Source: Lenzites betulinus (Eukaryota > Basidiomycota > Agaricomycetes > Polyporales > Polyporaceae). Taken from it: 64,000 nt of DNA. The DNA lies in assembly GCA_022264855.1 (NCBI GenBank), contig JABYQU010000018.1, positions 496,001 to 560,000 on the forward strand, read 5' to 3'. Position 1 is the stretch's first letter, and the number at the start of each line of letters is the position of its first letter. The notes under the pieces are model-generated. The model was given only the letters and a program-made list of their open reading frames with translations, searched no databases and was not told where the DNA came from. Positions 25,447 to 58,800 of this stretch are shown here, piece after piece. Both the position numbers and the translations under genes were made by a program.

Positions 25447-25573
25447 GTCAGTACTGCAAGCCTCCAATGTCAGTACTGCAAGCCTCCAATGTCAGTACTG
25501 CAAGCCTCCAATGTCAGTACTGCAAGCCTCCAATGTCAGTACTGCAAGCCTCCAATGTCAGTACTGCAAGCCT
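25447..25573. repeat. 22-bp tandem repeat, 5.8 copies
   Basis: The unit GTCAGTACTGCAAGCCTCCA(AT) starts at 25,447, 25,469, 25,491, 25,513, 25,535 and 25,557. The last copy is truncated after 17 bases. The five full copies look identical, so the array is young or homogenised. The unit contains the palindrome CAGTACTG. It is a minisatellite, not a CRISPR array, because there are no spacers. Confidence 0.95.
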
Positions 25574-36000: not shown

Positions 36001-37278
36001 GCTCTTTGTGACGCGAAAGGCAATGACAAACCTTTCGGCGGTGTCAGTGTTATCGTGGCCGGTGATTTCGCTCAGTTGCCACCGGTTGGCGAACGTCGTC
36101 TCTATGCATGGATGAACGTCAATAGTCGCGCAAATGCCGGTCGTAATGCGGGCCAAGAAATTGTATCTGGAAAGCTATTGTGGTTGTCGTTCACGACTGT
36201 CGTTATCTTAACCGAGATTATGCGCCAAAAGGCCGGGTCCGAAAATGATGCTTTTATAGACCTACTCGCTCGACTGCGACTGGGACAGTGTACTCCTGAG
36301 GACTACCGATTGCTGCAAAGCAGAGTACTGGAAAATGCATATAAGGAGTTAGACAACGACGGCTGGGTTGACGCACCAATCATCGTGTTCGATAACGCTA
36401 CAAAAGATGCGTTCAATGTAAGGGCCGTTCGGGAATTTGCTCGCAATACTGGGAGAGAGATGCAGTGGTATCATGCGTTAGACACTCACAGAGGCCGACG
36501 GATTGAAGACCAGTCGTTACAGGACATTCTACATACCATGCATAGCGGCGAAACTGGCCAACGACTAGGACAACTTCCTCTTGTGCTTGGCATGCCCGTC
36601 ATAGTCTGCCAGAATTTCGACGTCAGCGGAGGGATTGTTAATGGCAGTATAGGCACTTTAACGAAGATACGCTACAAGGTAGATAACATTACTGGGCAAC
36701 GGATACTCACCTCGTGTGTGGTTAAACTGCCGGATAATGAACACGAACGCGCCATGGAATCCTTAAACAACCACGAGTTCCCCATCCTCGACGACACTGT
36801 TGATATGAACTTCGTACATCCTCACTCTGGCCGTAAGTTGACGATCAAACGAACACAGGTTCCTATTCAGCCTGCCTTTGCGCTGACCGCTCATAAGTCA
36901 CAGGGACAAACCTTCTCGAAAGTGGTCGTAGACTTAGAGAGCTGCCGTGGTACCGAAGCTCCTTACGTCATGCTATCTCGTGCAACCAGCCTAGATGGTG
37001 TTATCATCCTGCGACCTTTCTCTATGTCCAAGATTACATGTCGAGCCTCAGAGGACCTAAGAAGAGAAAACCTACGTCTCCGTGAGTTAAGCCTCCGTAC
37101 CAGGACACAGTACTACGAAAACGTGGATGACAGAAAAGAAGCGCTGGACTTACTGTCACACCAATTCCCTCGCAGTATAGTTGACCAGAATACAGAGGCT
37201 CCCGCTTTACCCGTGCGACGTAATAAGAGAGCCCGGATTCCACAAGATGTTCCCGCGACCAAAAGATTAAAACAGTAG
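30072..37278 (+). pseudogene. Helitron Rep/helicase protein, one intron, one in-frame stop
   Basis: Exon 1 is 30,072-30,453 and exon 2 is 30,512-37,278 (intron GTCAGT...ACATAG, 58 nt, phase 1). The frame stays open to 37,278 apart from TGA at 32,644; without it the product would be 2,382 aa. Seen in order: an N-terminal block with VLGSDWL at 81-87 that resembles a degenerate retropepsin fold; a Cys-rich region (CACCG, later CKECHREL) followed by a LANHTYLGPVPPELQ block of the kind found before Rep in fungal Helitrons; then, after the stop, NEFCNPQLFPMVYPTLFPYG, HUH motif GRGTLHCH (about residue 1116), two catalytic tyrosines in YITDYITK (1296 and 1300), and helicase Walker A GGFGGTGKS (about 1861) and Walker B LLIDEVSM (about 1940). 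The rest of the frame is undamaged, so inactivation is recent, or the stop is read through or is a sequence error. Confidence 0.9.
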
Positions 37279-37421: not shown

Positions 37422-37430
37422 GCGCGACCA
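37422..37430 (+). repeat. Target-site duplication, left copy (GCGCGACCA)
   Basis: This nine-base word abuts the left end of the foldback element and is repeated exactly at 39,890-39,898. A 9-bp duplication is characteristic of Mutator-like elements. Confidence 0.85.
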
Positions 37431-37439
37431 GCAGCTGTT

Positions 37440-38093
37440 GTAGTTCTGATGTATCAGGTACCGGTAAATGGCCTGCGGCCTATTGCATTATGTACCGTAG
37501 GGACTCTGATGCATCAGGACCTCCCGGGAAAGTGCCCGGAAAGCCTCCGGGGCCTGCCTAATTAGGCAGGTGCCCCGGGGGAGCGCTGTTATCTATTGTT
37601 TTTACTGATCTACTGCTTATCTCTTGTAGATTACACTCTAATCTTATCAGCCCGGCGCTTTCCCGCGCCCCACTGGCCTCAGGAAGCGGGCGCTTCGGCT
37701 CTCGGCTCACAACACCCCAATTAGGCAACTGCCTCCTCCTCCCTCCATATCACCCTCCTCCCTCCGGCTCTCCTGGGCTCAATTCCTGTCAGATCACCCT
37801 CGCGCTAGCACCGTTCGATTTGAATTTTTAGGGACTACAATCGCGCGCAAACGCGTCCAGAATCCGGTGAGTAATGACTGTTTTACATTAGATACAAAAT
37901 GGGCTAGTGAGACGACGCAAAACGCGCGATATCTCGCGCGTTTCGCGTCGCCCCCTCGCGCGTAAGGGCTCCCCGGAAAGCCACAGAACGTGGCTTTCCG
38001 GCGAGCCCTTCACGACGCGAAACGGACCGGGGGCGGTGGAGATACCGTCCACCCTTCTGGGGTAGGAGGGTAGCTCCACCTCCCTGGTCCATA
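37440..38093 (+). repeat. Left 654-bp inverted arm
   Basis: It matches the reverse complement of 39,225-39,878 along its whole length. The only differences noticed are two bases near the inner end (TCCCTGG against TCCCCAG). The arm holds several internal hairpins: near 37,547-37,575 (CTGCCTAATTAGGCAG core), 37,913-37,950 (CGACGCAAAACGCGCG arms) and 37,964-38,010 (AAGGGCTCCCCGGAAAGCCA arms, 20 of 21 paired). Confidence 0.97.
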
Positions 38094-39224: not shown

Positions 39225-39878
39225 TATGGACTGGGGAGGTGGAGCTACCCTCCTACCCCAGAAGGGTGGACGGTATCTCCACCGCCCCCGGTCCGTTTCG
39301 CGTCGTGAAGGGCTCGCCGGAAAGCCACGTTCTGTGGCTTTCCGGGGAGCCCTTACGCGCGAGGGGGCGACGCGAAACGCGCGAGATATCGCGCGTTTTG
39401 CGTCGTCTCACTAGCCCATTTTGTATCTAATGTAAAACAGTCATTACTCACCGGATTCTGGACGCGTTTGCGCGCGATTGTAGTCCCTAAAAATTCAAAT
39501 CGAACGGTGCTAGCGCGAGGGTGATCTGACAGGAATTGAGCCCAGGAGAGCCGGAGGGAGGAGGGTGATATGGAGGGAGGAGGAGGCAGTTGCCTAATTG
39601 GGGTGTTGTGAGCCGAGAGCCGAAGCGCCCGCTTCCTGAGGCCAGTGGGGCGCGGGAAAGCGCCGGGCTGATAAGATTAGAGTGTAATCTACAAGAGATA
39701 AGCAGTAGATCAGTAAAAACAATAGATAACAGCGCTCCCCCGGGGCACCTGCCTAATTAGGCAGGCCCCGGAGGCTTTCCGGGCACTTTCCCGGGAGGTC
39801 CTGATGCATCAGAGTCCCTACGGTACATAATGCAATAGGCCGCAGGCCATTTACCGGTACCTGATACATCAGAACTAC
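39225..39878 (-). repeat. Right 654-bp inverted arm
   Basis: This is the reverse complement of 37,440-38,093. Short open frames in both arms (ending ...RRLTSPFCI) are the same sequence read twice and have no protein-like features. Confidence 0.97.
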
Positions 39879-39889
39879 CACAGCTTGTG

Positions 39890-39898
39890 GCGCGACCA
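39890..39898 (+). repeat. Target-site duplication, right copy (GCGCGACCA)
   Basis: Exact copy of 37,422-37,430, directly outside the right end of the foldback element. Confidence 0.85.
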
Positions 39899-43444: not shown

Positions 43445-44762
43445 TCATACAGGATACACTTTACAAACGCGCAACAACGTGCAAGTCACACAAACTCTCG
43501 ACGTTTCGTCACTCTTCCATAGCTCCTTCAATATTGAAAACCGGGGCCGTCTCGAGAACTTCGACGTCGTTACCTCCTTGATCAGTGCGGTCAAACCGAA
43601 GCTGATACGGCGTAAATGTCAATGCGAACATCATGCCGGTAACAAATCACTCACAGCGGCATCCTCTGCGGACCACAAACGCACGACCTCCTTCATCGCG
43701 AACCTGACCACAGATCCTGTGCGACGCTGACGGCGCCCGTATTGGATTTCCGCAAAGACGCTGACCTCCACAAAATCGCCGCGCCGAAGTGCTGTGGGCA
43801 CTATGGCCATCGTCTGCCCGTTCTCCTGACGGGCGCCAGTTTGGATAACGTGGTCGACTCGCCACACCTTTGCGAGTTTCATCGCTTTTCCGCCAGGATC
43901 GGACGCTGTACTCAAACGTACAGCAGGAGCCTGCGTGCCGGATGGACGGACCTGCGAAGTGCTCATGGTCAGCTACCACAAACAATCGTCACCGGAACCG
44001 ACACACCTTCGTGAACACCGAACGCTCCAAAACAATATGATCCATGTCGCGCTCTCCCTCCCGTTCTTCGTCCAACTCTGCACCCACCTTCGCCCGAATG
44101 AACGCTCGCAAGTTATTCAGAACATCGACCTGAGCATTGAAAGGTATGCCCGCTCCTCCACCTGATTCGAGTGTAACGTACTGCACAGCCGCGTGAGCAG
44201 AACGGTCCCTCCTAAGCAGGGATGTCAGACTATATACGCGAATAGACAAGCAACTATCGTCTTACTTATCCCAGTTTCCCAGAGGCGATATGTTGAAATC
44301 CCCCAAAAACCCTTGCAAGACAACAACAAAGGGACGCATCTGGGCTCGCATGTCGATCGGAAGGACTTGCGGGTGATGAACCAACGCCCTGCTGGACCAC
44401 GCCACATCGCCATCGTCGTCGCCTTTCTTCACGACTAGCAAAGAATCGCATAGGCCTTCGTACGACTCCGGTACATACCGCCAATCATCCTCGAGCTGCA
44501 TTTCGGCGAACGGTCCGCTATCGGAGCGGCCGAGATTGTTAGGCCACAACGCAGGTGCAATAATGCCTTGGTCTGCCGCGAGATGAGTACGTGAAACGAC
44601 GATAAGAAGAGCTACTGACGGGTTACGACAGACATGATGGAAACAGGATGGTAAAGCGACGCAGTTTCGTCCCCTTTTCGAAGTAATCGCCGTACAGGCA
44701 CTTATAATGCGCAGAGCCCCGCGCTTGGCAGATGACCTCCCAAACAAACACGGCCTCTCCGG
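43445..44762 (-). pseudogene. Orphan family A, member 2 (gene B), split by the retrotransposon
   Basis: Exons (minus): 44,762-44,634 (continuing from the start codon at 58,800), 44,572-44,266, 44,211-44,007, 43,951-43,655, 43,576-43,445; introns of 54-78 nt, all in phase. The undisturbed gene would encode about 357 aa. It shares the family-A blocks: MRPFVVVLQG centrally and RRGDFVEVSV with MKEVVRLW near the C-terminus, plus an extra C-terminal exon with ETSRVCVTC. The start codon and first five bases of coding sequence lie on the other side of the Gypsy element, so this copy is broken. Transcription from the LTR could still make a truncated product. The first donor (GTCTGT) is weak, and intron 4 is the least certain. 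Confidence 0.65.
44759..44762 (+). repeat. Target-site duplication of the Gypsy element, left copy (CCGG)
   Basis: CCGG is repeated at 58,793-58,796. Removing the element and one copy restores a continuous reading frame for gene B, which confirms the site. Confidence 0.85.
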
Positions 44763-45531
44763 TGATGCACTCAACCGACCGGTAAGGACGGATGAAAGAG
44801 ACGGTCGAGAGCCCAGAAGGTCGAGACCGGGCTGCGAAGACGTCTCGCGGAGCGCGAGGAGATGCAAGGTTCGCGTCGGGTGCCCTTACGGCGGCGCAGT
44901 ACGCAGAGAAGCGCGGAGGGAGGGGAGGGGTAGCGGTAAGGCGGAAGGTGCGCAACGACTCAGCTAAGCTGGCGTTTCCGCAGTACGCAGGAGGGTCGCT
45001 TCGTAGCCGGTGTCGGCGTCGCAGAAAACTCGTAACGCAATCGCAACACTAAACGCTAAATCGCAGGGGTTCGCAGTTCGCAGAGTTCGCAGGGTTCGCA
45101 GTTCGCAGTTCGCTGTTCGCAGGGTCGTCGCTGGGTTCTTCGAGGGAAAGTGAGATTCTGAGCCAAGGGGGGGTCTGATTGTCACGGCCCGAGGGCGTAG
45201 GTATTTACAGGGAGAGTCCGCACGTCCGATGTCATCAGAAAGTCTCTACGGAAGGCCCATCGCGAAGGGGATCGAGGCCACGATGTGCCGGACGCTAACG
45301 CGTAACGCGGAATGCGGAACGTACCATCGCGCTCCGTACGGACCGGCACCACGGAACGCAAGCCCTCGCGCGCGGATCGGCCCATGCCCTCGCGATACCG
45401 CGCGATAAGCCGTCCGCATACGGGCAAGGCCCCCTGCGCTGCAATGAGTCCTCCGCACCACGAAGCCCTCGGACTCGCGGAAACCGCGAAAAGAGTAGGT
45501 CGCGGGCGTTGGCTCGGCACGGGGCGTATCA
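44763..45531 (-). repeat. 3' LTR (element orientation)
   Basis: 769 bp, TG...CA ends. It contains a run of reiterated TTCGCAG/GTTCGCA words at about 45,067-45,122. Confidence 0.97.
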
Positions 45532-45543
45532 CCTCCCCCCCAC
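45532..45543 (-). other. Polypurine tract
   Basis: Read on the minus strand, GTGGGGGGGAGG abuts the 3' LTR, where plus-strand DNA synthesis of a retroelement is primed. Confidence 0.85.
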
Positions 45544-45599
45544 TGAGATCTCGACCGTCCCCGGTCGACTTCGCCGCGGTCCGCGATCCTTGCCGGCGA

Positions 45600-45605
45600 T
45601 ATAAA
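45600..45605 (+). promoter_or_regulatory. TATA box of cassette gene 1
   Basis: TATAAA lies 55 bases before the ATG at 45,655, inside the retrotransposon and directed against its genomic transcript. Confidence 0.6.
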
Positions 45606-45654
45606 GTCTCCGCGGGTAGTCCTTGCCTGTGGCCCCATCCTGACCTCGTACACC

Positions 45655-46343
45655 ATGCTCCACTACCTTGCCGACGTCGAGCTCGCCTTGAACGCGCTTC
45701 GCGCGGAAACCTGCCGTTTGGCAATTCGCCAGCTCGAAGGGCAAGCCGCGAACCTTGAAGTGATGAAGGAGAGCGGGGCCTATAACCTCCAGGATTGGCG
45801 CGACGCGCTCAAGGAGACGGTCTTCGCCGCGGTGAGTACCCTCGTAGAGTCGCCAGAGGCTGTCCTGACGGATCGTGGCTGAAGGAGGCCTGTGTCATCG
45901 TCGCCAAAGGCGACGAGCTCCTTCCGCCGCTCATCCGCCGTGTCGCCCGCCTCCTGGATTCCGAGGACGCGGACCCGACCCTACTCCCGTACTTCCACCG
46001 CTGCCTGTTCGCGATGAAACGCGAACACGAGGAACGCCTGGTGCAGGCCGCACAGTACCGCCTCGATGTCCTTCGTGCGCGCGCGGAGGCCACCCGTTAC
46101 GTGCTGACGCGCGCCGGGCCGACCCAAGTACTGCTCCTCTCGCAATTGGAAGAGGCTTCCGCGGGCGTCGATCGTCTTGTTCGCGACTCCCGACGCGAGC
46201 TCGCCGCCTTGAACGCCGCGGTCGCGGCCGATATGGATCTGCAGTCCCTCCCGATCAGCCTTGTCGCGCCCCCCGATGAGCATACATGGTACGGGATGCC
46301 CGACCTCGCCATCTACGACGACGCGATGGCCGAGGACGAATGA
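45655..46343 (+). CDS. Antisense cassette gene 1 of the Gypsy element
   Basis: Exons 45,655-45,831 and 45,885-46,343 (intron GTGAGT...CTGAAG, 53 nt, phase 0) give 211 aa. The protein is mostly helical by composition, rich in Ala, Leu, Glu and Arg, with heptad-like stretches (VDRLVRDSRRELAALNAAV) suggesting a coiled coil, and an acidic tail ending DDAMAEDE. No domain is recognised. Gene 2 next to it has the same length, a first exon of 60 instead of 59 codons and the same intron phase, so the two are ancient tandem duplicates. A TATA box and a splice-competent intron on the strand opposite to gag-pol show an independent transcription unit. Confidence 0.75.
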
Positions 46344-46493
46344 GACTGCAGGAAAGGGGAGCGTCGCTAGAAGTCGGCGCGACAGATGAGGCGGCGAAGG
46401 GAGGGTAGTCGGCCTGGTAGATAGATCCCCTGTACACCTCGAACACCTTTTATCGACCGATCGCAGGCCTGATTGGACGCGCGCCCGAGGGGC

Positions 46494-46499
46494 TATAAG
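46494..46499 (+). promoter_or_regulatory. TATA-like box of cassette gene 2
   Basis: TATAAG lies 58 bases before the preferred ATG at 46,557; an inverted CCAAT (ATTGG) lies about 23 bases before it. The spacing argues against the earlier ATG at 46,506, which is too close to the box. Confidence 0.55.
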
Positions 46500-46556
46500 A
46501 GAGAGATGGCGACGATTGAGGAGGGACCGACACCCGCTGCCTTTCGCCCGCGAAAC

Positions 46557-47259
46557 ATGTCCGCTCACACTCTCCCCTCCGTGGAACGCGAAATCGGCGC
46601 CTTATGCTATCGCGCGGAGACGGCCGCGATCCGCGAAGTGCTAACGGCGGTCCTCGCTCTGGAGGCCCTCCGGGACGCCGGCTGCGACGAGTCCGCGCGG
46701 TGGGAGGAAGCCCTGAGTCGCTTTCAGACTACCTGGGTGCGTGTCTTCTTCCTGAGTGCGCCGCCACCCGCCCTTCGCTGACCAGCCACCGCAGGCTCAC
46801 GCCCAGGCGATAGCGCCTACCTCCTCCGCGCTCGATGCCCTCTGCGACCGCGGGGATCGCGCCCTCGGTGCCCCGACAGTCCCCACAGGCTTCCAATGGC
46901 GCCTTCGCGGATTCGTCCTCGACAGTCTCCTATTTGCGCAGGAGCGCGAGCTCCAGATCGAATGGCTCCGTCTCGAGACCTGCCGCGTTAGCCTTATCAG
47001 CCTCCTCGGTACTCTCACGCCAGCTTCCCGCGCATCCGGAACGGCGCCGCTACTACTCGCCGCGAGGACCCTGCTTACGCGTGTACGCGAACTCCAGGAT
47101 TGCCATGCCGCGAACCAGGGGGCTGTCGAGGCGGCCCGCAGAGCGCAAGAGCGTATCGAGGAATACCTCAGCCTTCCGGGCCTGTCGACGCCGCCTACGG
47201 CCGCGCGCGCGCTTGGGAACTCTTCCGTGGGATCCTATGTAGACGATGTCCTCTTGTAG
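46557..47259 (+). CDS. Antisense cassette gene 2, paralogue of gene 1
   Basis: Exons 46,557-46,736 and 46,795-47,259 (intron GTGCGT...CCGCAG, 58 nt, phase 0) give 214 aa. Like its neighbour it is Ala/Leu/Arg-rich and predicted helical (REIGALCYRAETAAIREV, then LLAARTLLTRVRELQDC), ending in SVGSYVDDVLL. Gene length, exon proportions and intron phase match gene 1, while the residues have diverged strongly, so the duplication is old and both copies seem to have been kept. Function is unknown. The start at 46,557 is chosen from TATA spacing. Confidence 0.72.
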
Positions 47260-47993
47260 GCTCCGCACAGCCACTCTGTCGGCAATGACCCCACGGGAGT
47301 TCGCTAGCCACCGTGCCAAGGGGAGGGGTCGGAGGAGGAGCTGTATTGACGCTATCCGGGCGCGATAAATGATAGCGTTCCACCAGGAGGACGAATGGTT
47401 TGACGCTGCGCGTATTCCCGCCGATGACTCTAAACTCCCGTCGTAAAGGCCTCACCGATCGCACCGTAGGCGTAGTAGCCGGCCGTGACTGACACAGGCG
47501 CGCGCGCGTCCGCAGCGTCCCGTTCATTTGACCGAGTACGGGTACGCCGGGCGTGTCTTCGCGACCCTAAGTCCTCGTGTTGGCCAGCGCCTGCCGCGTG
47601 TATCGCCGTAGAGCCTCGGGGCGCGAACCTCGCAGGGGTGCGCCGTTGCGCCTCCGCCGCATTGCCTGGCATTTCACCCCGCCAGCCCGCGTATGCCTCT
47701 CTAACCTTCCTCGCGTATCCCCGAAGGAGAGATCCGACCGCGCGAGCTGCCCGGCTGCGTCCGGCTGTTGTCTCGCGGTCTCGCGAACCGTAGCGCCGGC
47801 GCGCAGGATTGCCAGTCTGCTTCCGCAGCCCTGAGCGGACTTGATCGCGTCTTCCGCTGACGTCCAAGGCTCCGGGGCAATCCTCTAAATAGTGCCGTCT
47901 TCTCCTCCCTCCACCTCGCGGTCCCCTCTCGCTCCTTGCCTCTGTCCTCCTCCCCGCTCCTCTAGCTAAGTCGTCCACTGCCGCCACCCCGTA
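47260..47993 (+). other. Spacer and likely promoter of cassette gene 3
   Basis: No gene was found. The right part (about 47,905-47,965) is almost pure C/T on the plus strand, ending CTCTAG, and TCTAAATA lies at 47,884-47,891. This looks like a pyrimidine-rich fungal promoter, possibly with a leader intron. Long minus-strand frames here are compositional. Confidence 0.4.
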
Positions 47994-50447
47994 ATGTCGA
48001 ACGACCAACGCCGCGAACAGTCGCGCCACGCGCTCGAAGAGGAGCTCCGCATTGCCGTTCTGCCGGATGCCGCCGACGAAGATGTCGAGGAGAGGGCGCG
48101 CGGGGCTCTGGCCCAACTGGTGCGCTCCCCCCCCCTCTTGCCTGGCGGACTCCGCGATCACTGACGCCTCCCTACCCACAGGACGAGCTCGTGCTCCTGA
48201 CCGAACGGCCAGGCACGGTCCGTCGCTTCGCCGACGAGCTCTATACCCACTTCGCGGACTTCGCGACGGGCATGGGAGATCCGCCGGCGGACCACCCCGA
48301 CGACTACCCCTGGGTCCACCCTCTTTTCGTCCGCGCGTGGGCTCGCGCGACCGGTGCGCCGCTCCCGGAGTCTGTCGTTGCCGCGCGGGCTACTCCAGCT
48401 GCCTCGGCGCAGCCCCCTTCGTCGCCCGCGCCCGTCCCCGTCGCACTTCCGGGCGCCTCCGCGCGCGCAGTCCTTCCACCGCCGGCGCCGCCTCCAGCAA
48501 GCGTCCGCGCCCTTCCTCCTCCCCCGAACCCACGGCCCCGCCTGCGAAGCAGCCGAAACGCGATAAAGGTAAGGGTAGGGCCCTGCCGCAGGAGGATCCG
48601 CCGGCTGCTTCCGCGTCCGAGACCGACGACCCCATCGCGTCGATCCCCACACGCGCGTCGACGTCCAAGCTCCTCCCCGTGGAGAAGAAGGCGGGGTACC
48701 GCCGCGCACCAAAGAAGAAGACGGTCCGAATCGAGGCTCCTGCTCCGCGGAAGCGTCGTACCGGCCTTCCCCAGCTCTCGCCGCCGGTCTACCCGCGTAA
48801 GGCGCGGCTGCCAAATGATCGCATGAAGCGCGTAAGTCCCCTCAGCCTCGTTCTCCGTTCGCAGGCTAACAATCCCCTTGGCCCCCCTCCTTTTCGCAGT
48901 GCACTGGTTGCCGGGGCCGCGAGCCTGACGGTAGCGAAATGCGCTGTATTATGCGCGAAGGGCTCGACCGGTGCGACCGCTGCTGGTACGGCCGGCAGTC
49001 TTGCCATCTAATCAACCCGGTCAAGGCCTCCGGGAAGATGGCCGCGATCCAGGGTCGGGGCTACGCGGACTGGTACCGCTCGAAGGGATACTCGTACGGT
49101 GCGCCCTCCCCTTCTATTCTTCTCCGCGCTCTGCTCGAGCTCCGAACGCTGACTTCCTACTTCGCGTAGCGGCCCCGCCTATCGCCCGCGAGGTCTTCAA
49201 CGTCTGCCACATCCGCGGCTCCAAGCACCTCATCCCGCCCTGGGTCGTCGAGGAGCTTACGCAGGAACTGGGTCGCCCGCCCGTCTATCCGCTCCCTCCG
49301 CAAGACCCCGTCGCTTCCGGTACCGAATCCGCGAGCGGCGACGATTCCGACCAGGGTTCCGCCCAGTCCGCCGGAGAAGAAGCCAGCGACGCGGAACCGG
49401 TAGAACCCCCTGTCGACGCTCCGGTCGCAGAGCCCCGTCCTCGCCCTCGTCCTCGGCCGGTGTCTGCCGCTGCCTCGACCTCCGTAGCTACCGCGAGATC
49501 CTCCGGCGCGGTCGAGAGGGCGTTCGGGGCTCACGGCTTCACCGTCGGGGTCCAAGGGGCTCCGCCGCTCTCAAAGCAAGGTCCGCCCTCCTCCTCACGC
49601 CGTCGCGCAAGACGCGAAACTAGTGCTGATGTCGCGATAGCCCCTCTCGGTAGCGGCGCTACGCCCGGCGCCGCTTCGACCTCGCTCGCGTCCGTCGGCG
49701 CGACCAGTGGCCAGACTGCCGATGCGCAGGCGCGTCCGCGAGAGGTACGCGTAGTTTCGCGATCCTTCAGCTGCACTTGCTAACTTCTCTTGCTCTTTGT
49801 TTCCATAGGACCTCGAACTCCACCAAGAGGCGTCGGACGACGGCGACGCCGACGGACCCTTCGTGCCCTCGGCCTCGGCCGAAGATCCTCCCGCCTACTG
49901 GCCCGTCAGCGAGGCTAGCTTCCGCGACTGCGTCGACACCGAGGTCGAGTGGTTCCGCCGCGAGTTCACCCGCGAGTTCCGCCAGTCCCTGTCCAAGCAG
50001 CGAGCCAACCCACCCAACGAGCTCCCCGGTCTCCCGCTCGACGACGTCGTCGCCTTCCGCATCTTGGCCCAGCAACAGGCCTTGTTCAAGGCGCGGTCCG
50101 ACGCCTTCGGCACCCTGATGGCCGGGGCTTCTCGCGGCATGGCCGACTACTTGGAGCAGTCGAGCAAGTTCCTGGACAAGGCCTTCCAACACGTCGACGC
50201 CCAGCTCGCTGCGCTGGCGAACGGTTCCGCCGAGCCGGAGCGCGGTTCCGCTGAACTGGAGCACGGTTCCGCCGCCTTCGAGCGCGAGTCCTCTGCCTTC
50301 GCGCGCGGTTCCTCCGTCGACGCTGCCTCCTCTGCGGGCCCCGTCGCCGGTCCTTCCTCGCTCCGCCAGGTTCCGCTGCCCGGCTCCTCCGCCGGAGCCG
50401 GAACGTCCGCGAACGCCGAGTCCGCGACTCGCTCCAGTCCTTCTTGA
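47994..50447 (+). CDS. Antisense cassette gene 3: six-cysteine, zinc-cluster-like protein
   Basis: Exons: 47,994-48,119, 48,182-48,831, 48,900-49,098, 49,170-49,744, 49,809-50,447; introns 62-71 nt with canonical ends. The second exon needs one frame change between about 48,370 and 48,510, so a further short intron or a real frameshift lies there. Product about 720 aa. Order: acidic start; WVHPLF block; Pro/Ala linker; basic segment (KKKTVRIEAPAPRKRR); a cysteine motif C-x2-C-x9-C-x8-C-x2-C-x6-C (CTGC...RCDRCWYGRQSC) at 48,900-49,010; Ser/Glu/Pro-rich linker; C-terminal helical block (EWFRREFTREFRQSLSKQ). The spacing recalls fungal Zn(II)2Cys6 DNA-binding clusters but is not a standard match. 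Basic region plus cysteine cluster suggests nucleic-acid binding, which is an inference. Confidence 0.65.
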
Positions 50448-50768
50448 GTTCCGGAACGCGTTGGCGTCCGAGGAGGTCTTCCGGCTGTACAGGTTAGCTC
50501 GCTCTCGTCTTCGCCCGCCGTCGCTCCGTCCTACTGTCCCTACGTAACCGCACCAGTCCATATAGTTCGTCCGTACACCAGCGAGAAACAGTTAAGCACC
50601 GAAATGAGTGTAAGAAAGCCGCGTAGATCGGCGGAAGAGGTACGTGTATTGATGAAGTGAAAGGCTTGTAAGTACAAGAAGGGAAAGGGCAGTGGCCCGA
50701 AGTCCAAAACGAATGTAATACTAGCTTCTCGTATCGAAAGCGTCTCGTCCGTAGCGAGCGTAACAGGC
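50448..50768. other. Tail-to-tail spacer between cassette gene 3 and pol
   Basis: This 321-bp spacer separates the convergent 3' ends of the antisense gene and pol. It is less GC-rich than the coding parts and probably holds both polyadenylation regions. No clear AATAAA was fixed. Confidence 0.4.
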
Positions 50769-53700
50769 TTACTGGTCCTCCTCCGCGGACTCCTCTTCCG
50801 CGATTGCGTGTTCTGGGGAGAGGATTTCCGGCTCCGGTACGTCTTCGCCATCGTCGTCGGAGCCCACTAGCTCCGCTAGGCGTTTGTCCGAAATGTCCGC
50901 GAAGTTCGGTGGCAGCGGTATCTCCGTACGCGCTAGGTAGGGGATCAGGCGAAAGGCACCGACCGCGCGATGCAGAACGGAGCCGTCGAGTTCGCACAAT
51001 ACGTAGGCCCCTCCGCGGTTCCTCGATATCACCACTAAGGGCCCGTGTACCGCGCGCGCATCTTGCGATTGAGGGACTTCTCGATCTGCGTGTGTCGCAT
51101 CAGTACGAGAGCTCCCGCTTTGAAGTCGTAATCGCGGATCGTGTGCTGGTGGTCGCGCTCGAACTTCCGCGCCGCTTCCGCACGGGCGCGGAATACCTTC
51201 GAGTTGAGCCGTACAAGCTGTTCGTGCCGCCGTTGTAGCTCCACCGCGCGCCGCGCTATGAGATCGCCAGTGCTGATGAGGCTGTCGGGAGCTGGCAAAA
51301 GGTACGTTGCCTCTACGATGTCTAGGGGCAGGACTGGGTGACAGCCTGTGACTGCGAAGTATGGTGAACAGCCCATTCGCTTTCGGACAGTGACCCGTTC
51401 CGCCCAGAACGCGAAGTGAGCCCCTTGCGCCCACTTGTGCTGTTCGCCGCCTACGATCTTGTAGAGGACCTGACGTGTGTCGAAGTGGGAGTGCTCCACT
51501 ATGCCGTTCGCTTTGGAATTGTAAGGCGAGATGGAAATGTGGTGGATCTTGAATCGCTTCTGCAGGTCTCGTACCGCGCTGACGAACGCGGCGCCGTTGT
51601 CCGTTACGATCTCCGACATCGCCCCCCACCGGCAAAGTAAGTCCTGGAAGATGAAGTCCGCGAGGGTCTTCGCGGTTTCGGCGCGTAGCATACGCCATTC
51701 TGGCCACGCGGAAACCGAGCATCGCGCCGCGACTAGCATGGTGAATCCGCTGGACGTCGGCATCTTCATCGTGTCGATATACCACTTCGTGCAGAGTGCG
51801 CCAGGCGCCGCCACGACCGGAGGGATGAGTACCAGACGGTGTTGTCGCGTTTGGCAGATATGGCAGGTCCGCACGTACCACGTCGTGTCTTCGCGCATCG
51901 TCGGCCACCAGAATCGCTGTGCGATATGTTGGAGTGTCGCGTAGTGTCCGCGATGACCCATCTCGTCGTGCGCTGCGACCATGACTGCTAAACGTCTCTC
52001 CTTCCATACAATCACCTTGTGCTCGCCATGGACGTCCTTCTTCCACAGTCGGCTGCCGTCATAGAAGAAGCCCTGCGCGTACTTGATAAAGGTCGCGTAT
52101 GCGGAGTCCTTGCTGAGATGTGCCGGTCGCTGAAGGGTCCTCAACCAGTCCTTCACGTCATTGAGACGTCTGTCCACTCGCGATGCGTGTTCCGAGTAGG
52201 GCATCGCCGGTGGGCCGTCCGGTATCGCGATCTCGTGTGTATGTTCTTCTGTCGCAAATCTGACCTTCGCGCGTGCCTTCGCCCTCGCCGTTCGCTGAGT
52301 GGTCGCTTCGGAGTTCGTGGTAGCACCCTCCCCCTCACTGAAATCTCGACCGTCCTCGGTCGCGTCCACGAGGGCGAAGAGCTGTACGGGTGTCGAAACT
52401 GTTCGCGTGCCGCGCGAAGGTACTGGGAGGATGTGGTGTATGAAACCGTGTACTCGATCGATCCAGTCTTCGAAGTCGTCCAGGTCACTCGCGGGTGCAT
52501 CCCCAGGCTGCGCGGGTCGTCTCGAAAGGCCATCAGGGCCATGCGACGTGCCGGGAACGTGAACAAGGTTGAAATGGAAGGTGAGGATGCCTAGGATCCA
52601 GCGATTGATGCTCGCGCCGGGCGCAAGATCGGGGTTCTGGAGCATGCCTTTGATGTACCGTGCGTCGACCTCCACGATGAGGTTACGAATGCCGACGAGG
52701 TAGATCTTGGTCGCCTGCAGCGCACGGAAAAGGCCATACAGTTCCAGTTTTGGTTGGGAAAACCGCGATTCGCGGTCGTTGAGGGTAATGGAGCCAAAGC
52801 GACTATAGAACCGCTTCCGTGGGTCTTCTTCGTCGCACTGGCAGAGGTGATATCCAACCGCGATGTATGAAGTGTCGACCGCTAGGATTACGGGGGCATG
52901 CGAATCGTAGTTGATCGCACGAAGTGCCGGAGACTCCAGTAGGGCCTGGCGGAGGTCGTTCATCGCGGCGAGTTGTGCTTCGCCGAACTCGAACGGTACG
53001 TCTTTTCGCGTAAGCTGTACCAGTGCGTTCGCGCGTTTCGCGAAGTTACGAATGAAGATCCGCACGACCCCAATGGTCCCCAGAAAGGCTCGTACGTCCG
53101 ATAGGTCTTTGCAGGGCCCCCAGTTGCGGATTACCGCGGCGCGGGACTCGTCCGGCAGTCGTCCTTCCGGGGTGCAGCGATGTCCGACGACCATGATTTC
53201 GCGGGCGCACAGAATGGACTTGGTTCCTGAGAAGGTCCCACCAGCGTACTTCATTCGCTGGACTACGCGGTTGATGTTCCCGAAGTGCTCCCACACGAAG
53301 CGCCGGATTCCGCGGTTCTGCGGAATGGTTTCGTAGACTCCGTTCGCGTCGCGATAGTCGGATTCGGGTCCTTTGCAGGGCACATCGTCGATGTAGGGAG
53401 CTGTGAGGTCCGGGATCTCTGGGCGCAGGATATAGGTGACGTCCTCGTGAAAGATCGGCACAGAATTGGACCAGCCCATAGGCAGCGTACAGTGTCTGAG
53501 CGCGCCGAAAGGCGTCTGGAAGGTAGTGAGGTCTCGAGAGGATTCCGCGATTAGCCGCTCGTCGTAGCCCACGTAGAGGTCGAAGATCGCGCCGCAAGCG
53601 CGTCCCCCAAACTGTTCCGCGAGGTAGTCCGGCGTTGGCGGTACCCCTGAGTGTTGGATGGTAACGCGGTTCAGCGGCTCAAGACTGTGGACGATACGCA

Positions 53701-54751
53701 GCGAGTGTTTGTCCTTCTTGAGGACGCAGAACCATCGCGAACGGTAGGACGAATTGGAGGGTTCGTAAACGCCAGCTGCGATCTTTCGCTTCAGCATTTC
53801 GCACACCTCCTTGTACAGTCCCGGTGGAATTGGTATGTTCTTCTCGACCCACGGAGTATGCGGGAGGACGGGGAACTCGACGGGCGGAAAGAACTCGGCC
53901 TTAAAGCAACCGCGTTCTTCATCGCTCCATGCGAAGCCATCGTTGTGGAGGCTCATGAAGTGGTGCAGGAGCTTCTTCTCCTCCGGCCATAAAAAGTCGC
54001 CGCCGTGAGCCTTGTCGAACGCCTCCTTACGTTCCTGAGTATAACGCCCAGTCGGTGTGAACGGTGGAGGCGTCGGGGAGAGCGTGGGCATCGTGGCCAG
54101 CGGATCCCCAGTGATATTGCGCTCGATGCGGAACTGCTCCGGACACGTTCCGAGAACGGCGCGAACCTTCTGTGCGACGGGCTTGTACTTCTTCTTGGAC
54201 TGGACATAGGCACTTGCAAGCCCTTCCTCAGTCGAAGCATCCGCCGCTACACCAGGACCGACGTCCGTCCGCGGGGCCTCGCGGAGCTCGTTTGCTACCG
54301 TGCGCGAGTATACTACGCGGGAGCCCTTGTCCGTTCTATAGGAGAACGCGAACACACCGCTGGAGTGGGGATTGGGTTGCGCTGATTGCGAATATCGCGG
54401 GGTATCGCCTTCGCTAGTCTGCGCTGAGCTAGAGAAGGGTTTTACGGCTATAGGCCCGCGAGCAGTCGAGGCTGAGAAGGAAGGAAAGAGAGAGGGAGAA
54501 GGACAAGAGTACGAGTCATCGGACGGTTCGCTTTGTGGGTTTTGGGCGTGGAAATACGCTTTCGCTAGGCTCGGGAGTTGATCGCAGGCGGAGAGATAGA
54601 GAGCAGGCATAGGGAGGGAAGGATCGGAGAGCAGGGTATAAGCGCGAATGCGCGGAACGTCGCCTTCTAGTTCTATGATAACGGCGATGTCGTCACTACC
54701 TTCCTCAGATAGTGGGTTCGGGTCGGACTGGCTCGGGGTTCGGACGGGCAC
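50769..54751 (-). pseudogene. Gypsy Pol: reverse transcriptase, RNase H, integrase (frameshifted near the end)
   Basis: The main frame is 54,751-51,035; a second frame continues it to 50,769. Reverse transcriptase: RSRWFCVLKKD, then catalytic YIDD at about 53,384-53,395. RNase H: LAVDTSYIAVG, PKLELYGL, VEVDARYIKG and VHVPGTSHGPDGLSRRP. Integrase: HHCC zinc domain (HRGHYATLQH, CHICQTRQ) and the D,D,E core (WYIDTMKMP, VTDNGAAF, NGIVEHSH). Near 51,040 the main frame stops after RARYTGP, whereas the conserved continuation (LVVISRNRGGAY) is in another frame: one base is missing or misread. The integrase C-terminus then ends with an acidic tail and no chromodomain. Pol has no AUG at its start; it overlaps gag by at least 47 bases in the +1 frame, so translational frameshifting is likely. 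Confidence 0.93.
52324..52361 (-). other. Internal copy of the polypurine-tract region
   Basis: This 38-base stretch inside pol repeats the sequence at the 3' LTR boundary (45,531-45,568) with about 4-5 differences, including the purine tract (GAGGGGGAGGGT on the minus strand) and the following GGTCGAGATnTCAGTG block. A central polypurine tract gives a second plus-strand primer in some retroelements. Confidence 0.7.
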
Positions 54752-57700
54752 GAAATCGAGCCCGTCCCCGCGGAATGGTGGGGATCGTCGCGATTTGTCC
54801 AGTATTGGGGCACTCGATGGTGATGGTCTGGTCCTCGTTGTCGAAGTTCTTGATGACGCTCTTGGTTAGGACATCGAACGGCCTTCCGAGGAGCATGTCG
54901 TACGCCGCGTTACGAACGACGTGGACTTGCAAGTATAGGACAATTGTCGAGACCTTGAACGGCATGTTCCGCACCAAACCGAGCGACTTCTCGACCTCCC
55001 CGTTCGCGGATTGCATATTCAGCCGTATCGTGGGGTCGTACGAGAGCCCAAGATGGTGGCAGACGTGCTCCGACATCGCGACGATCATGCAACCAGGGTC
55101 GACGATCGCTTCTACGTACTCCTTGGTGTCGACGAGACCAACGATTGATCGCAGCGCATGCGACTCCTTCGCGTTCTTCAGAGGAGGGCTCTCACCAGAC
55201 GGGGCAACATCCCGAAGGTAGACATCGTAAAGGTCAGGGAGAACGTAACCGCCAGGCTCCAAAGGTGTTCCGAAGCACGAGAGCTCTTCCGGTTCTGCTC
55301 CGTCCGCGGTCGAGGATCCTTCGACGCCAGCGAAGGCAACGGTCCTTTGGCCGGTGGGTGGGACTCGTCGCGGAGTGACCGCTTCGCGGAACTTCGCGCG
55401 GACCTCCGGCGCCAGTGAGAGGAGCTCCTCCGTTGAGACATTGATCACGGGAGTCTTCATCATACGCTCGAAGACTGCGGCTGCGAGCCCTGGCTGGTAG
55501 ACTGGTGCAATCGTGCGAAAGGCGCCGTCGCGCTCCTGTTCCTTCGGCTTCGCGGGCGGCGCTCCAAAGTTGCGTACGTTCGGGGGCGCGTAAGTCGCAT
55601 CGCGCGCCTTCGCGAAAGGGTGTTCTGGTAGCGGTGGTTGGCCTTGGTCCGCCGGTGCGCGATACGGCGTCGCTGGGCGTTCCTGTTGTCGCGGCGGCTC
55701 GGGCACCTGGTTCTCCGTCGTCCGGATGGTTGCGTCGTGTACGGGTCGCTCGCGGTCCCCGGTCGCTACCGTTTCGCGGAAACGCAGAGCGGGTTCGAGA
55801 TGCGGAGGGACCAGTCGCGCGGGTTGCCCAGTGGCGTTCGCCTTAGGGGGCGCGAAGGCCGCTGGCGAGCGCGAGGGTCCCGGGCGCGAGTCCGCGGAGC
55901 GTTCGCGGTTTTGAGGGCCTGGCGACGCAGGTCGCGATACCGGTCGCGAGCGCGGTTTTGGGAACGAGGGTACCTCCACGCCATCGAAGCGTTCCTTCCC
56001 CTTCTTGAGCATGTACAGCTCGTGCTCTAACTGTTGGATGCGGTCCTCCGCGGTGAACTGGAAGCTACTAATCCACGGTTCGACGTCCTCCGCGATCGCA
56101 AATACCATTTGGGCCGCTGGGGCTGCCTGCGCGGGGTTCTGACCTTGGCGAACACGTTCCCGTCGGTGCCATTCGTAGAGTCGGTCGCGCATAGTCAAAC
56201 CGTCGAACCCAGGGAGCTGTCGCGGGAGGAACTGACCAGTAGGGAGCACAATCAGCCCTTCCGGGTTACGCGAGCACTTCCCTTCGCGGATGTCAGTCTC
56301 CGCTGCCGGGCAGTTCCGCAGCATATGGTTCGCATCGCCGCAGTAGTGGCAGAAGCCGTTTGGTAGCGCGTTCGCCGCGAAACCGTTCCCTCCCTGCTGG
56401 AAACCTTGCGCTCCCTGCATCATGCCCTGGTAGTTAGGCGCGGGGCGCGCTCCGGCGTTCGGGGGTCCTAGAAAGCGATTCGCGGTCGCGGAAGCATTCG
56501 CATTGTTGCCACCTTGCGCGAGGAGCCGGAAGAGCGGCGCGAGATCCTCCACTTTGATGGTCGAAGAGTCCGCGGGCGTCGTAGTCGTAGGGGCCGCCGG
56601 GGCCACTTGGTACGACGCCGTCGTCGTTCCGTGCAGGATGAATTTCGCGGCCTCGTAGACTTTGGCCAGCTCGTAGGCCTCGTCTGGATGATGGTCTGGG
56701 TCTTTGAGCTGAAGGCGCTGCGCGACCTGGTCGTGAAGGGGGTTGCAGAGACCGCTGAAGAATAGTCTCGACTGCTCGAAGGTGGACATCTTGTTGTGCT
56801 GAATCAGGTAGGACGTCATGGCATAGAACGGCCGATAGAAGTCGCCGAGTTCGCTACTGGTGGTGATTGGAGCCTTACGGCGCGACTCGACCAGCTTGTC
56901 CACTTCGGCATTGGAGAACTTCCGCGTCTCGCTAGCGCCGGGGTGCGAAGCGTAGATCGCCGCGCGGAACTCCTCGAAGGTCTTCGTTTGGTCCTTGTAC
57001 TCCTCCATCTCCTCGTAGAACTCCGACTCGCTGATCGGCACGTAGCGCGTGACCCACTTCTTCTGTACGTTGGGGTCCGTGATTCCCGCGATCTCGAAGA
57101 GGGTCTCGAGGTCCTGGAAGAACCTGCGAAGGTTCCGCGGCTCGCTAGAGTCAAAGGTGGGCGCGGTCGCATGACCGCGTGCCGGCATAGCACGGCGCAT
57201 CGCGAAGTTGTTCTGTTCCGCCATCGAAGAGACTGTAGATGGCTCGCGCGAGTGAGAGGATACGCTGGGGGTTTTACGCGTCGCGTTGCTGTCTGAAGAC
57301 GATGGCTCTAAAGGAGTGAGGTTCGAGACTGCGGATTGCGGGCTACCGTATGGCGTCGCGTAGTTGACGAAGGACTCTTCGGCGCCTTCTGGGAGCGATT
57401 CGGGAAAGAGAGGCGGCGACGAGAGAATCGCGCGGTGTACGATAGCGTCTGCCGTGTCCTGTAGCCACTGGGTCGCGGACGGATCGGTTTCAAGCGCCTG
57501 GATGCTTTTCGCGAGTAGCGAAAAGAGTGGGTCTACTAGCGCCGGTACCAAGTCCAGTACCAGTTGATTCCGAAGTCGCGAGACACCTCGTAGGAGCTGA
57601 TCCACGAAGTCTTGTTGTTGAGGAGCAGTGAGGTTTGACTCGTCGTCGTTCGCGAGCGTCGCGTTTGAGGCCCACTCAGGTAGGGGGGCGGTTGCGATGA

Positions 57701-58031
57701 CTGCGAGGGCGTCCGAGCGGATTCTAGCTGCAGTGGAGGCGCGGAGCGGAGCAGGTTTGTTCAGAAGTATCGCGGTGCCCGTATCGAGAACAGCCAGTGC
57801 CGCACGGAGGAGCGCGTCGATCTGATCTTCACTGAGGGAGCGCGGAAGCCTTTTTGCGAAGGCGCGGATCTGGTCGGGTAGGAGGGCGCTTGAGAGTGTA
57901 TCGTTTTGCCGAGACGCGGAACGCGATACGCGGTGAATTGCGGGTGAGACGGCGCTATCGCCGTCGAAGGAGGAAGCCGACAAGTGAAACTTGTACACAC
58001 ACCCCCTGCGGTGGTCACCAGAATGATGCAC
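54705..58031 (-). CDS. Gypsy Gag with zinc knuckle and aspartic protease
   Basis: The open frame covers 1,108 codons, but it begins inside the LTR/PBS without an ATG. The first good ATG is at 57,224 (MAEQNNFAMRR), just before the capsid-like helical region (RNLRRFFQDLETLF), so the true start is either there or through a spliced leader. A CCHC zinc knuckle (CHYCGDANHMLRNC) lies at about 56,311-56,350. A Pro/Arg-rich linker follows. The C-terminal part is a retropepsin with active-site IVDPGCMIV (DPG in place of the usual DTG/DSG) and the conserved MLLGRPF. The frame ends VRPEPTI. Gag packages the element RNA; the protease matures Gag-Pol. The frame is intact. Confidence 0.9.
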   Translation of the reverse strand: MHHSGDHRRGCVYKFHLSASSFDGDSAVSPAIHRVSRSASRQNDTLSSALLPDQIRAFAKRLPRSLSEDQIDALLRAALAVLDTGTAILLNKPAPLRASTAARIRSDALAVIATAPLPEWASNATLANDDESNLTAPQQQDFVDQLLRGVSRLRNQLVLDLVPALVDPLFSLLAKSIQALETDPSATQWLQDTADAIVHRAILSSPPLFPESLPEGAEESFVNYATPYGSPQSAVSNLTPLEPSSSDSNATRKTPSVSSHSREPSTVSSMAEQNNFAMRRAMPARGHATAPTFDSSEPRNLRRFFQDLETLFEIAGITDPNVQKKWVTRYVPISESEFYEEMEEYKDQTKTFEEFRAAIYASHPGASETRKFSNAEVDKLVESRRKAPITTSSELGDFYRPFYAMTSYLIQHNKMSTFEQSRLFFSGLCNPLHDQVAQRLQLKDPDHHPDEAYELAKVYEAAKFILHGTTTASYQVAPAAPTTTTPADSSTIKVEDLAPLFRLLAQGGNNANASATANRFLGPPNAGARPAPNYQGMMQGAQGFQQGGNGFAANALPNGFCHYCGDANHMLRNCPAAETDIREGKCSRNPEGLIVLPTGQFLPRQLPGFDGLTMRDRLYEWHRRERVRQGQNPAQAAPAAQMVFAIAEDVEPWISSFQFTAEDRIQQLEHELYMLKKGKERFDGVEVPSFPKPRSRPVSRPASPGPQNRERSADSRPGPSRSPAAFAPPKANATGQPARLVPPHLEPALRFRETVATGDRERPVHDATIRTTENQVPEPPRQQERPATPYRAPADQGQPPLPEHPFAKARDATYAPPNVRNFGAPPAKPKEQERDGAFRTIAPVYQPGLAAAVFERMMKTPVINVSTEELLSLAPEVRAKFREAVTPRRVPPTGQRTVAFAGVEGSSTADGAEPEELSCFGTPLEPGGYVLPDLYDVYLRDVAPSGESPPLKNAKESHALRSIVGLVDTKEYVEAIVDPGCMIVAMSEHVCHHLGLSYDPTIRLNMQSANGEVEKSLGLVRNMPFKVSTIVLYLQVHVVRNAAYDMLLGRPFDVLTKSVIKNFDNEDQTITIECPNTGQIATIPTIPRGRARFRARPNPEPVRPEPTI
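58003..58020 (-). other. Primer-binding site
   Basis: Three bases inside the 5' LTR, the minus strand reads TGGTGACCACCGCAGGGG. It begins with TGG, the complement of a tRNA 3' CCA, as expected for a tRNA-primed element. The tRNA species was not identified. Confidence 0.7.
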
Positions 58032-58792
58032 TCAACCGACCGGTAAGGACGGATGAAAGAGACGGTCGAGAGCCCAGAAGGTCGAGACCGGGCTGCGAAG
58101 ACGTCTCGCGGAGCGCGAGGAGATGCAAGGTTCGCGTCGGGTGCCCTTACGGCGGCGCAGTACGCAGAGAAGCGCGGAGGGAGGGGAGGGGTAGCGGTAA
58201 GGCGGAAGGTGCGCAACGACTCAGCTAAGCTGGCGTTTCCGCAGTACGCAGGAGGGTCGCTTCGTAGCCGGTGTCGGCGTCGCAGAAAACTCGTAACGCA
58301 ATCGCAACGCTAAACGCTAAATCGCAGGGGTTCGCAGTTCGCAGAGTTCGCAGGGTTCGCAGTTCGCAGTTCGCTGTTCGCAGGGTCGTCGCTGGGTTCT
58401 TCGAGGGAAAGTGAGATTCTGAGCCAAGGGGGGGTCTGATTGTCACGGCCCGAGGGCGTAGGTATTTACAGGGAGAGTCCGCACGTCCGATGTCATCAGA
58501 AAGTCTCTACGGAAGGCCCATCGCGAAGGGGATCGAGGCCACGATGTGCCGGACGCTAACGCGTAACGCGGAATGCGGAACGTACCATCGCGCTCCGTAC
58601 GGACCGGCACCACGGAACGCAAGCCCTCGCGCGCGGATCGGCCCATGCCCTCGCGATACCGCGCGATAAGCCGTCCGCATACGGGCAAGGCCCCCTGCGC
58701 TGCAATGAGTCCTCCGCACCACGAAGCCCTCGGACTCGCGGAAACCGCGAAAAGAGTAGGTCGCGGGCGTTGGCTCGGCACGGGGCGTATCA
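58024..58792 (-). repeat. 5' LTR (element orientation)
   Basis: 769 bp, same length as the copy at 44,763, differing by eye only at 58,309 (G instead of A). Confidence 0.97.
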
Positions 58793-58800
58793 CCGGCCAT
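58793..58800 (-). pseudogene. Start codon fragment of family-A gene B
   Basis: On the minus strand ATGGCCGG (58,800-58,793) ends exactly at the LTR and includes the CCGG duplication. Joined to 44,758 downward it gives MAGEAVFVWEV in frame, with phase 1 at the first splice site as required. The first 133 bases of coding sequence are thus split by 14 kb. Confidence 0.7.

Follow-up and report, generated by a model that had tools for sequence, protein, structure and literature searches.

Antisense accessory genes are already known from two kinds of long terminal repeat (LTR) elements. In plant Gypsy retrotransposons such as Retand (TRP28), Grande (gene23) and RIRE2, an antisense open reading frame (ORF) called aORF-3R lies between pol and the 3' LTR; its position and orientation are kept across families, a promoter of its own has been reported for Grande, and a regulatory role has been proposed (PMC11963269 and PMC7264820, in their available parts). 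The role of the plant antisense ORFs is still described as unknown in the accessible part of PMC7264820. The second case is HBZ of human T-cell leukemia virus type 1 (HTLV-1) together with the APH antisense genes: an antisense gene occupies the 3' end of an LTR element, its transcript is spliced, and HBZ lowers the expression of the virus from its 5' LTR (PMC10186651, in the part available). Extra genes beside gag and pol, common to families, are also found in LTR retrotransposons of bdelloid rotifers, in which spliced messages carry an ORF3 for proteins of env-like, esterase, exonuclease and other types (PMC5408684, likewise in part). The present analysis concerns a 64,000-nucleotide stretch of the fungus Lenzites betulinus (contig JABYQU010000018.1, positions 496,001 to 560,000; hereafter the window), in which a Ty3/Gypsy element holds three predicted antisense genes, A, B and C, between pol and its 3' LTR. 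With a probability of about 0.7, we take this element to represent a Ty3/Gypsy sublineage in which an antisense accessory module, made up of three protein genes at that position, is ancestral and co-evolving.

The window is part of contig C19 in a 37.4-Mb genome of 108 contigs, and other copies are labelled here by contig (C40, C43 and so on); family 1 is the family of the window element, and families 2 and 3 are related repeated families of the same genome. The window element differs from the plant examples in being fungal, in having three genes with six introns (in the window's family) and a six-cysteine exon, and in showing no match to TRP28 (PF04195), which was sought in A, B, most of C (666 amino acids), family-2 gene A and three cysteine exons. 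The word "intron" does not occur in the main text of PMC11963269 and PMC7264820, as far as that text is available. HBZ, a basic leucine zipper factor, has its expression driven from the 3' LTR, whereas the window module has TATA boxes just inside the LTR; no protein relation between HBZ and A, B or C turned up, and no dedicated comparison was made. In the available text of the rotifer paper (PMC5408684) "antisense" occurs once and "intron" not at all, and that of a survey of fungal LTR elements (PMC3248453) contains none of "antisense", "additional ORF", "opposite strand", "intron" and "zinc". Within a literature made up of titles and abstract openings, with subscription papers mostly outside it, there was no report of antisense introned genes in fungal Gypsy elements, nor of any element with more than one introned antisense gene; PMC6338049 proved to have no bearing on the matter. 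A preliminary description of this DNA had called the cassette unusual, and that rarity has to be qualified, antisense accessory ORFs as such being standard in some plant Gypsy lineages and known in HTLV. What would be new, judged by that literature, is the fungal host and the plurality of introned genes. Antisense accessory genes, so far a matter of plants and deltaretroviruses, would then have a fungal case too, and one in which a single element has several of them.

The element lies on the minus strand, and the 5.2 kb from its polypurine tract to the end of pol hold the three genes on the plus strand. Gene A (45655-46343, 211 amino acids) has exons at 45655-45831 and 45885-46343 around a GT-AG intron (45832-45884), and gene B (46557-47259, 214 amino acids) has exons at 46557-46736 and 46795-47259 around a GT-AG intron at 46737-46794; both introns are in phase 0. 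The preliminary description had seen TATA boxes ahead of two genes, and these proved to be conserved in the older copy C40: the TATAA of gene A (plus strand, 45600-45604) begins 55 bases before the ATG at 45655 and has 27 of 27 surrounding bases identical there, and that of gene B (plus strand, 46494-46498) begins 63 bases before the ATG at 46557, with 24 of 27 identical. A second ATG at 46506 lies just 12 bases past the start of the gene B box, and since both ATGs are kept in C40 the gene may start there instead. Genes A and B are distantly related to each other (E = 0.004 for A against B, and 3e-4 for A against the family-2 frame in B's place). Gene C (47994-50447, about 729 codons) has exons at 47994-48119, 48182-48831, 48900-49098, 49170-49744 and 49809-50447, separated by GT-AG introns at 48120-48181, 48832-48899, 49099-49169 and 49745-49808. 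Its product would combine a basic region, a six-cysteine exon and a C-terminal portion whose sequence, judged by eye, suggests helices; the cysteine exon is exon 3 (48900-49098), in which the six-cysteine cluster is followed by a Y..WY...G motif and which is bounded by introns in all three families.

Comparison with older copies shows that A, B and C, described as genes in the preliminary description, are real genes, under protein-level selection in their plus-strand frames. The window module is 82-93% identical to that of C40, depending on the piece. Codon-position rates and ratios of nonsynonymous to synonymous substitution (dN/dS) were computed with a six-intron model, and splice-site conservation was compared with a seven-intron model. 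Against C40, codon positions 1, 2 and 3 show 0.093, 0.073 and 0.195 differences per site, respectively, introns 0.165 and intergenic DNA 0.118, and the excess at position 3 over positions 1 and 2 has p = 6.7e-21. Measured against the older copies, the rate of change in third positions and introns is roughly double that in first and second positions. All 21 exon comparisons have the predicted wobble phase as the fastest, by a weak margin in the last exon. Against C40, dN/dS is 0.10 for A, 0.35 for B and 0.28 for C; parts of gene C give 0.21, 0.30 and 0.31 against the further older copies C87:378k, C32 and C55, and all these ratios are probably too high because the compared copies also decayed after insertion. 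Relative to C40 the exons have three indels (two in multiples of three, the third being a break in the window copy) and the non-coding DNA has 25 (three in multiples of three). Many overlapping ORFs are present on both strands of this GC-rich DNA, and one of the seven introns proposed at the outset is indeed spurious (see below), so that chance ORFs linked by chance GT-AG pairs had to be considered; given the third-position excess and the intron positions common to families, such an artefact has next to no probability and is refuted for the whole module.

Splice sites are likewise maintained. Both GT and AG are kept in C40 at the introns of A and B and at the last three of gene C, and in C32 and C55 at these last three; the acceptor of the first gene C intron is CAG in C40 and C87:378k, as read from the sequence where an alignment gap hides it. 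An additional hint comes from a metagenome protein, P0121. It agrees with gene A at 52 of 59 residues in exon 1, by a count made by eye, and at 91% in exon 2, and has 18 extra residues between the two matches. We read these residues as a putative translated intron of 54 bases, one base longer than that of the window.

A different explanation is that the antisense RNA is itself the product, forming double-stranded RNA with the genomic RNA that silences or self-limits the element, in which case the frames would be incidental. The genes are in fact complementary to the genomic RNA, and regulation of this kind has been proposed for plant antisense ORFs (PMC7264820, in the part available). The codon-position signal, the frame-preserving exon indels and the dN/dS values of 0.10-0.35 speak for translated products, and introns diverge about as fast as third positions, all of which makes this explanation unlikely. 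Selection has kept the antisense genes functional, probably since they help or regulate their element.

Retroelements are expected to lose introns. Here the RNA that is reverse transcribed is a minus-strand transcript, in which the plus-strand introns read CT...AC and hence are not spliced. The genome is consistent with this explanation, which rests on known retrotransposition biology and which the preliminary description had offered for the survival of the introns. An intron-sized gap is kept at 26 of 26 gene-A places (11 in family 1, including the decayed C4, C40 and C52, and 15 in family 2), and, with up to three mismatches allowed, no spliced family-1 gene-A junction turned up anywhere in the genome, a backwards control likewise giving none. 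The gag and pol genes, which lie on the copied strand, are intron-free ORFs. The introns would thus persist because the genes face opposite to the genomic RNA, where they cannot be spliced, and the pairing of intron-free sense genes with introned antisense genes in one element provides a clean natural control.

Only six of the seven introns put forward earlier are supported. The seventh was reconstructed as 48354-48412, the sole pair found that bridges a frame change in exon 2 of gene C and brings the total to seven; it was rejected, its acceptor being absent in C40 and C87:378k, both older copies that cover it, with length unchanged. One extra base is present near 48.44 kb in five of seven other copies (C40, C87:378k, C43, C87 and C12), and C74 and C86 have several other one-base differences there instead. 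In C40 and C87:378k exon 2 is a single open frame. The extra base in other copies therefore marks gene C of the window as frame-broken rather than intact, and the pair proposed as a seventh intron does no more than bridge a one-base break of the window copy. Length differences from C43 occur at about 48441 (gene C) and at 51041 (pol) despite near-identical LTRs, and a base-calling error behind one or both is possible.

The preliminary description had suggested searching for further copies, on the view that full copies without the cassette would point to a single nested insertion. The genome-wide searches scored the best candidates only (for pol, 37 of 263); the copy numbers are therefore minimum values, and a pol or module that went unscored may still be present. 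At 99% identity or more, the module's first kilobase recurs in at least nine places, in addition to the decayed C40 and C52, and the module is carried by a full copy in C43 and by a copy in C87 that has a further insertion. In family 2, with a pol about 72-76% identical to that of the window, gene A is present in at least 15 places at 31-33% identity to family 1 and with its intron at the same boundary, and the gene order is that of family 1: A, then a frame related to A where B would be, then a C-like gene. The cysteine exon of family 3 is found in at least 13 places. Right after the preceding intron, this exon starts at the first CxxC in families 1 and 2 or four codons earlier in family 3, and in all three it ends one base past a codon, just after the Y..WY...G motif, with the next intron following. 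The exon/intron structure is thus common to families whose module DNA no longer aligns. Wherever both were scored, the module is antisense to pol in family 1 (4 of 4: C19, C43, C87 and C40) and in family 2 (7 of 7: C98, C81, C60, C51, C20, C12 and C87). Same-strand pol fragments at C12:390607-393531, near the module at C12:403-407 kb, were left out of this count; they lie outside the LTR pair 393967-408243, beside a neighbouring family-2 module.

These comparisons bear on a host origin of the module, in which one copy took up a neighbouring block of genes and then spread. Introns and promoters of their own do make A, B and C resemble host genes. Homologous modules nevertheless occupy the matching position even between families in which gene A identity is down to 31-33%, the module is present in C43 and C87 as well, and among the best candidates scored A, B and C have no separate relative in the host at E <= 0.01; a nested insertion or capture of this kind is accordingly quite improbable. 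Comparing the families rules out a recent single capture and leaves room for an ancient one at the base of the sublineage. Every scored genome match to A, B and C belongs to the three repeated families or their decayed copies, and the earlier idea that the element is a vehicle for genes, in the sense of cargo, finds no support there. An outgroup Gypsy family (pol 48% identical; C19:237 kb and C80) has its 3' LTR about 40 bp past the pol stop and no module. The simplest history is a gain of the module in one Gypsy sublineage and its retention from then on.

The proteins themselves give few clues to their function. A search with the gene C protein (seven-intron model, 666 amino acids) found no relative at E <= 0.01 among 7999 candidates, where pol finds 1428 in the same database, which does therefore include fungal proteins, and a gene-A profile search returned three proteins only, 88-99% identical, with no more distant fungal relatives among them.

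The Gal4-type Zn(II)2Cys6 pattern is C-x2-C-x6-C-x5-12-C-x2-C-x6-8-C. The spacing of the six cysteines is exactly this in family 3, and the first loop is x7 in family 2 and x11 in family 1. Pfam gave no Zn_clus match for the three cysteine exons, and hhalign aligned all six cysteines of families 2 and 3 with a Gal4-type cluster at a probability of just 13.5%, giving nothing with the window included. A search of solved structures with the family-3 exon found nothing credible. Fungal multi-exon "hypothetical proteins" with such a six-cysteine exon may be transposon genes.

Several observations weigh against an ancestral module of three protein genes. Splicing of the six introns is a prediction from evolutionary comparison. 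Pfam has no credible domain for A, B or C (C tested over 666 amino acids), and AlphaFold (AF2) models are of low confidence, with a predicted local distance difference test score of 53 both for the window cysteine exon, modelled as strands and not helices, and for the gene A homologue P0121, modelled as all helix. Some of the older copies are damaged: C40 has two stops in gene C, and the decayed C32 and C55 have, respectively, one and two stops and 9 and 12 exon indels whose lengths are not multiples of three. Gene B of family 2 is known just as an A-related frame at B's position. In family 3 an opposite-strand pol is close by in just two of 13 cysteine-exon places (C24 and C2), the pol fragments near C12:66074 and C12:71170 are same-strand only, C60:239161 is ambiguous, and eight places are without a scored pol. 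Grouping the pol places gives 32, of which 13 have an opposite-strand module, two a same-strand one, two are the outgroup and 15 are without a scored module (C31, C39, C22, C17, C76, C65, C37, C21, C50, C47, C52, C26, C78, C97 and C63). Some relatives may therefore lack the module; several of the 15 are fragments or lie at contig ends, and the contig of C31 stops there. Finally, as described next, a subfamily has spread with gene C interrupted.

In C12, C74 and C86 an insert of 2.46-2.47 kb occupies the same site in the last exon of gene C; it is the same by sequence in C12 and C86, where the DNA on the side of pol is also unrelated over 1.5 kb or more, and genes A and B are open in C12. Because this subfamily spread with an interrupted gene C, the module is not required in cis in every copy, and its products can act, or be dispensed with, in trans. 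The insert (L050-L052, L057 and L058) has inverted ends of about 650 bp and an 8-bp duplication at 49941-49948. Further nested inserts with inverted ends, recognised by eye, lie in gene C of one family-2 and one family-3 copy (L064 at about 4840-7560 and L065 at about 459-2930), and gene C has thus been struck in all three families, perhaps merely through its length.

How an ancestral module of three protein genes might work can be sketched by analogy. Transcription would start at the internal promoters just inside the 3' LTR and head toward pol, and spliced messages would yield A and B, two small, helical proteins related to each other, and C, which is large and basic and has a cysteine cluster. 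These proteins would act in trans on the DNA or RNA of the element, and the most likely effect, judging from HBZ and plant aORF-3R, would be a tuning of LTR transcription or of integration. The module thus most likely regulates its own element, and self-regulation acting at least partly via proteins is possible, because amino-acid changes have been selected against. An alternative places the target of A, B and C in the host, for example in heterochromatin or RNA silencing, rather than at the element's own promoter. Divergence is fast, as under host conflict, with gene A 33% and pol about 72% identical between families, and the spread of the derivative with a broken gene C makes help in trans plausible; A, B and C match no domain, and we regard this alternative as doubtful, if less so than the other rivals considered above. 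In its fullest form, the preferred reading of an element-regulating module holds that a fungal Gypsy sublineage that started without extra genes evolved an antisense regulatory module of three genes with introns, an accessory set resembling those of retroviruses and independent of those of HTLV and plant Retand, and that the non-genomic strand keeps its spliceosomal introns through reverse transcription; we consider this somewhat better than an even bet. The module-free outgroup, the derivatives whose gene C is broken and the recognisable promoters together make up a system for testing the role of such genes.

The host element itself is a young Ty3/Gypsy LTR retrotransposon, as the preliminary description had it. 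It spans 44763-58792 (minus strand, 14.0 kb), with the 769-bp 3' LTR at 44763-45531 in direct repeat with the 5' LTR at 58024-58792; the pair has one mismatch in 769 bp, and a 4-bp target-site duplication, CCGG, was read by eye at the outer flanks (44759-44762 and 58793-58796). A putative polypurine tract at 45532-45544, AGTGGGGGGGAGG on the minus strand, is proposed from its position adjoining the 3' LTR. The gag ORF (minus strand, 54705-58031, 1108 amino acids) includes an aspartic protease domain (Asp_protease_2, E = 4.7e-07), and the pol ORF (minus strand, 51035-54751) has RNase H, an integrase zinc domain and an integrase core. The Pfam domain order of protease (in the gag ORF), RNase H, integrase H2C2 and rve is that of Ty3/Gypsy, with rve under the curated cut-off; Pfam found no reverse transcriptase match in the window pol, and PF00078 is present on some of its 1428 database relatives, among which those of the mushrooms Mycena chlorophos and Agrocybe chaxingu stand at 61-62% identity within the 120 listed, as would fit a host among the agaricomycetes. 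Relative to copy C43, pol differs in length by one base at 51041, which throws its end part into another frame. A tRNA scan of the window found none, and no primer tRNA was assigned. LTR matches number at least 40 genome-wide (the best 40 of 54 candidates were scored), and the LTR pairs of other copies differ, per 769 bp, at 3 sites in C43, at 8 plus one gap in C12 and at 14 plus one gap in C87; differences this few indicate that the family moved repeatedly and recently. At C86:87702-89924 (L024), two LTRs 0.7 kb apart are about 89% and about 99% identical to those of the window, that is, of unlike ages.

Other features of the window lie away from the element. A Helitron-type ORF of 1514 amino acids (32734-37278, plus strand) is free of stops and includes Helitron_like_N and PIF1 helicase domains. 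Just past it is a 671-bp inverted repeat (37423-38093 and 39225-39894), 99.1% identical and with its arms 1.1 kb apart, which is perhaps a separate element with long terminal inverted repeats. A short tandem array at 25447-25573 consists of exact direct repeats spaced 44, 66 and 88 bp.

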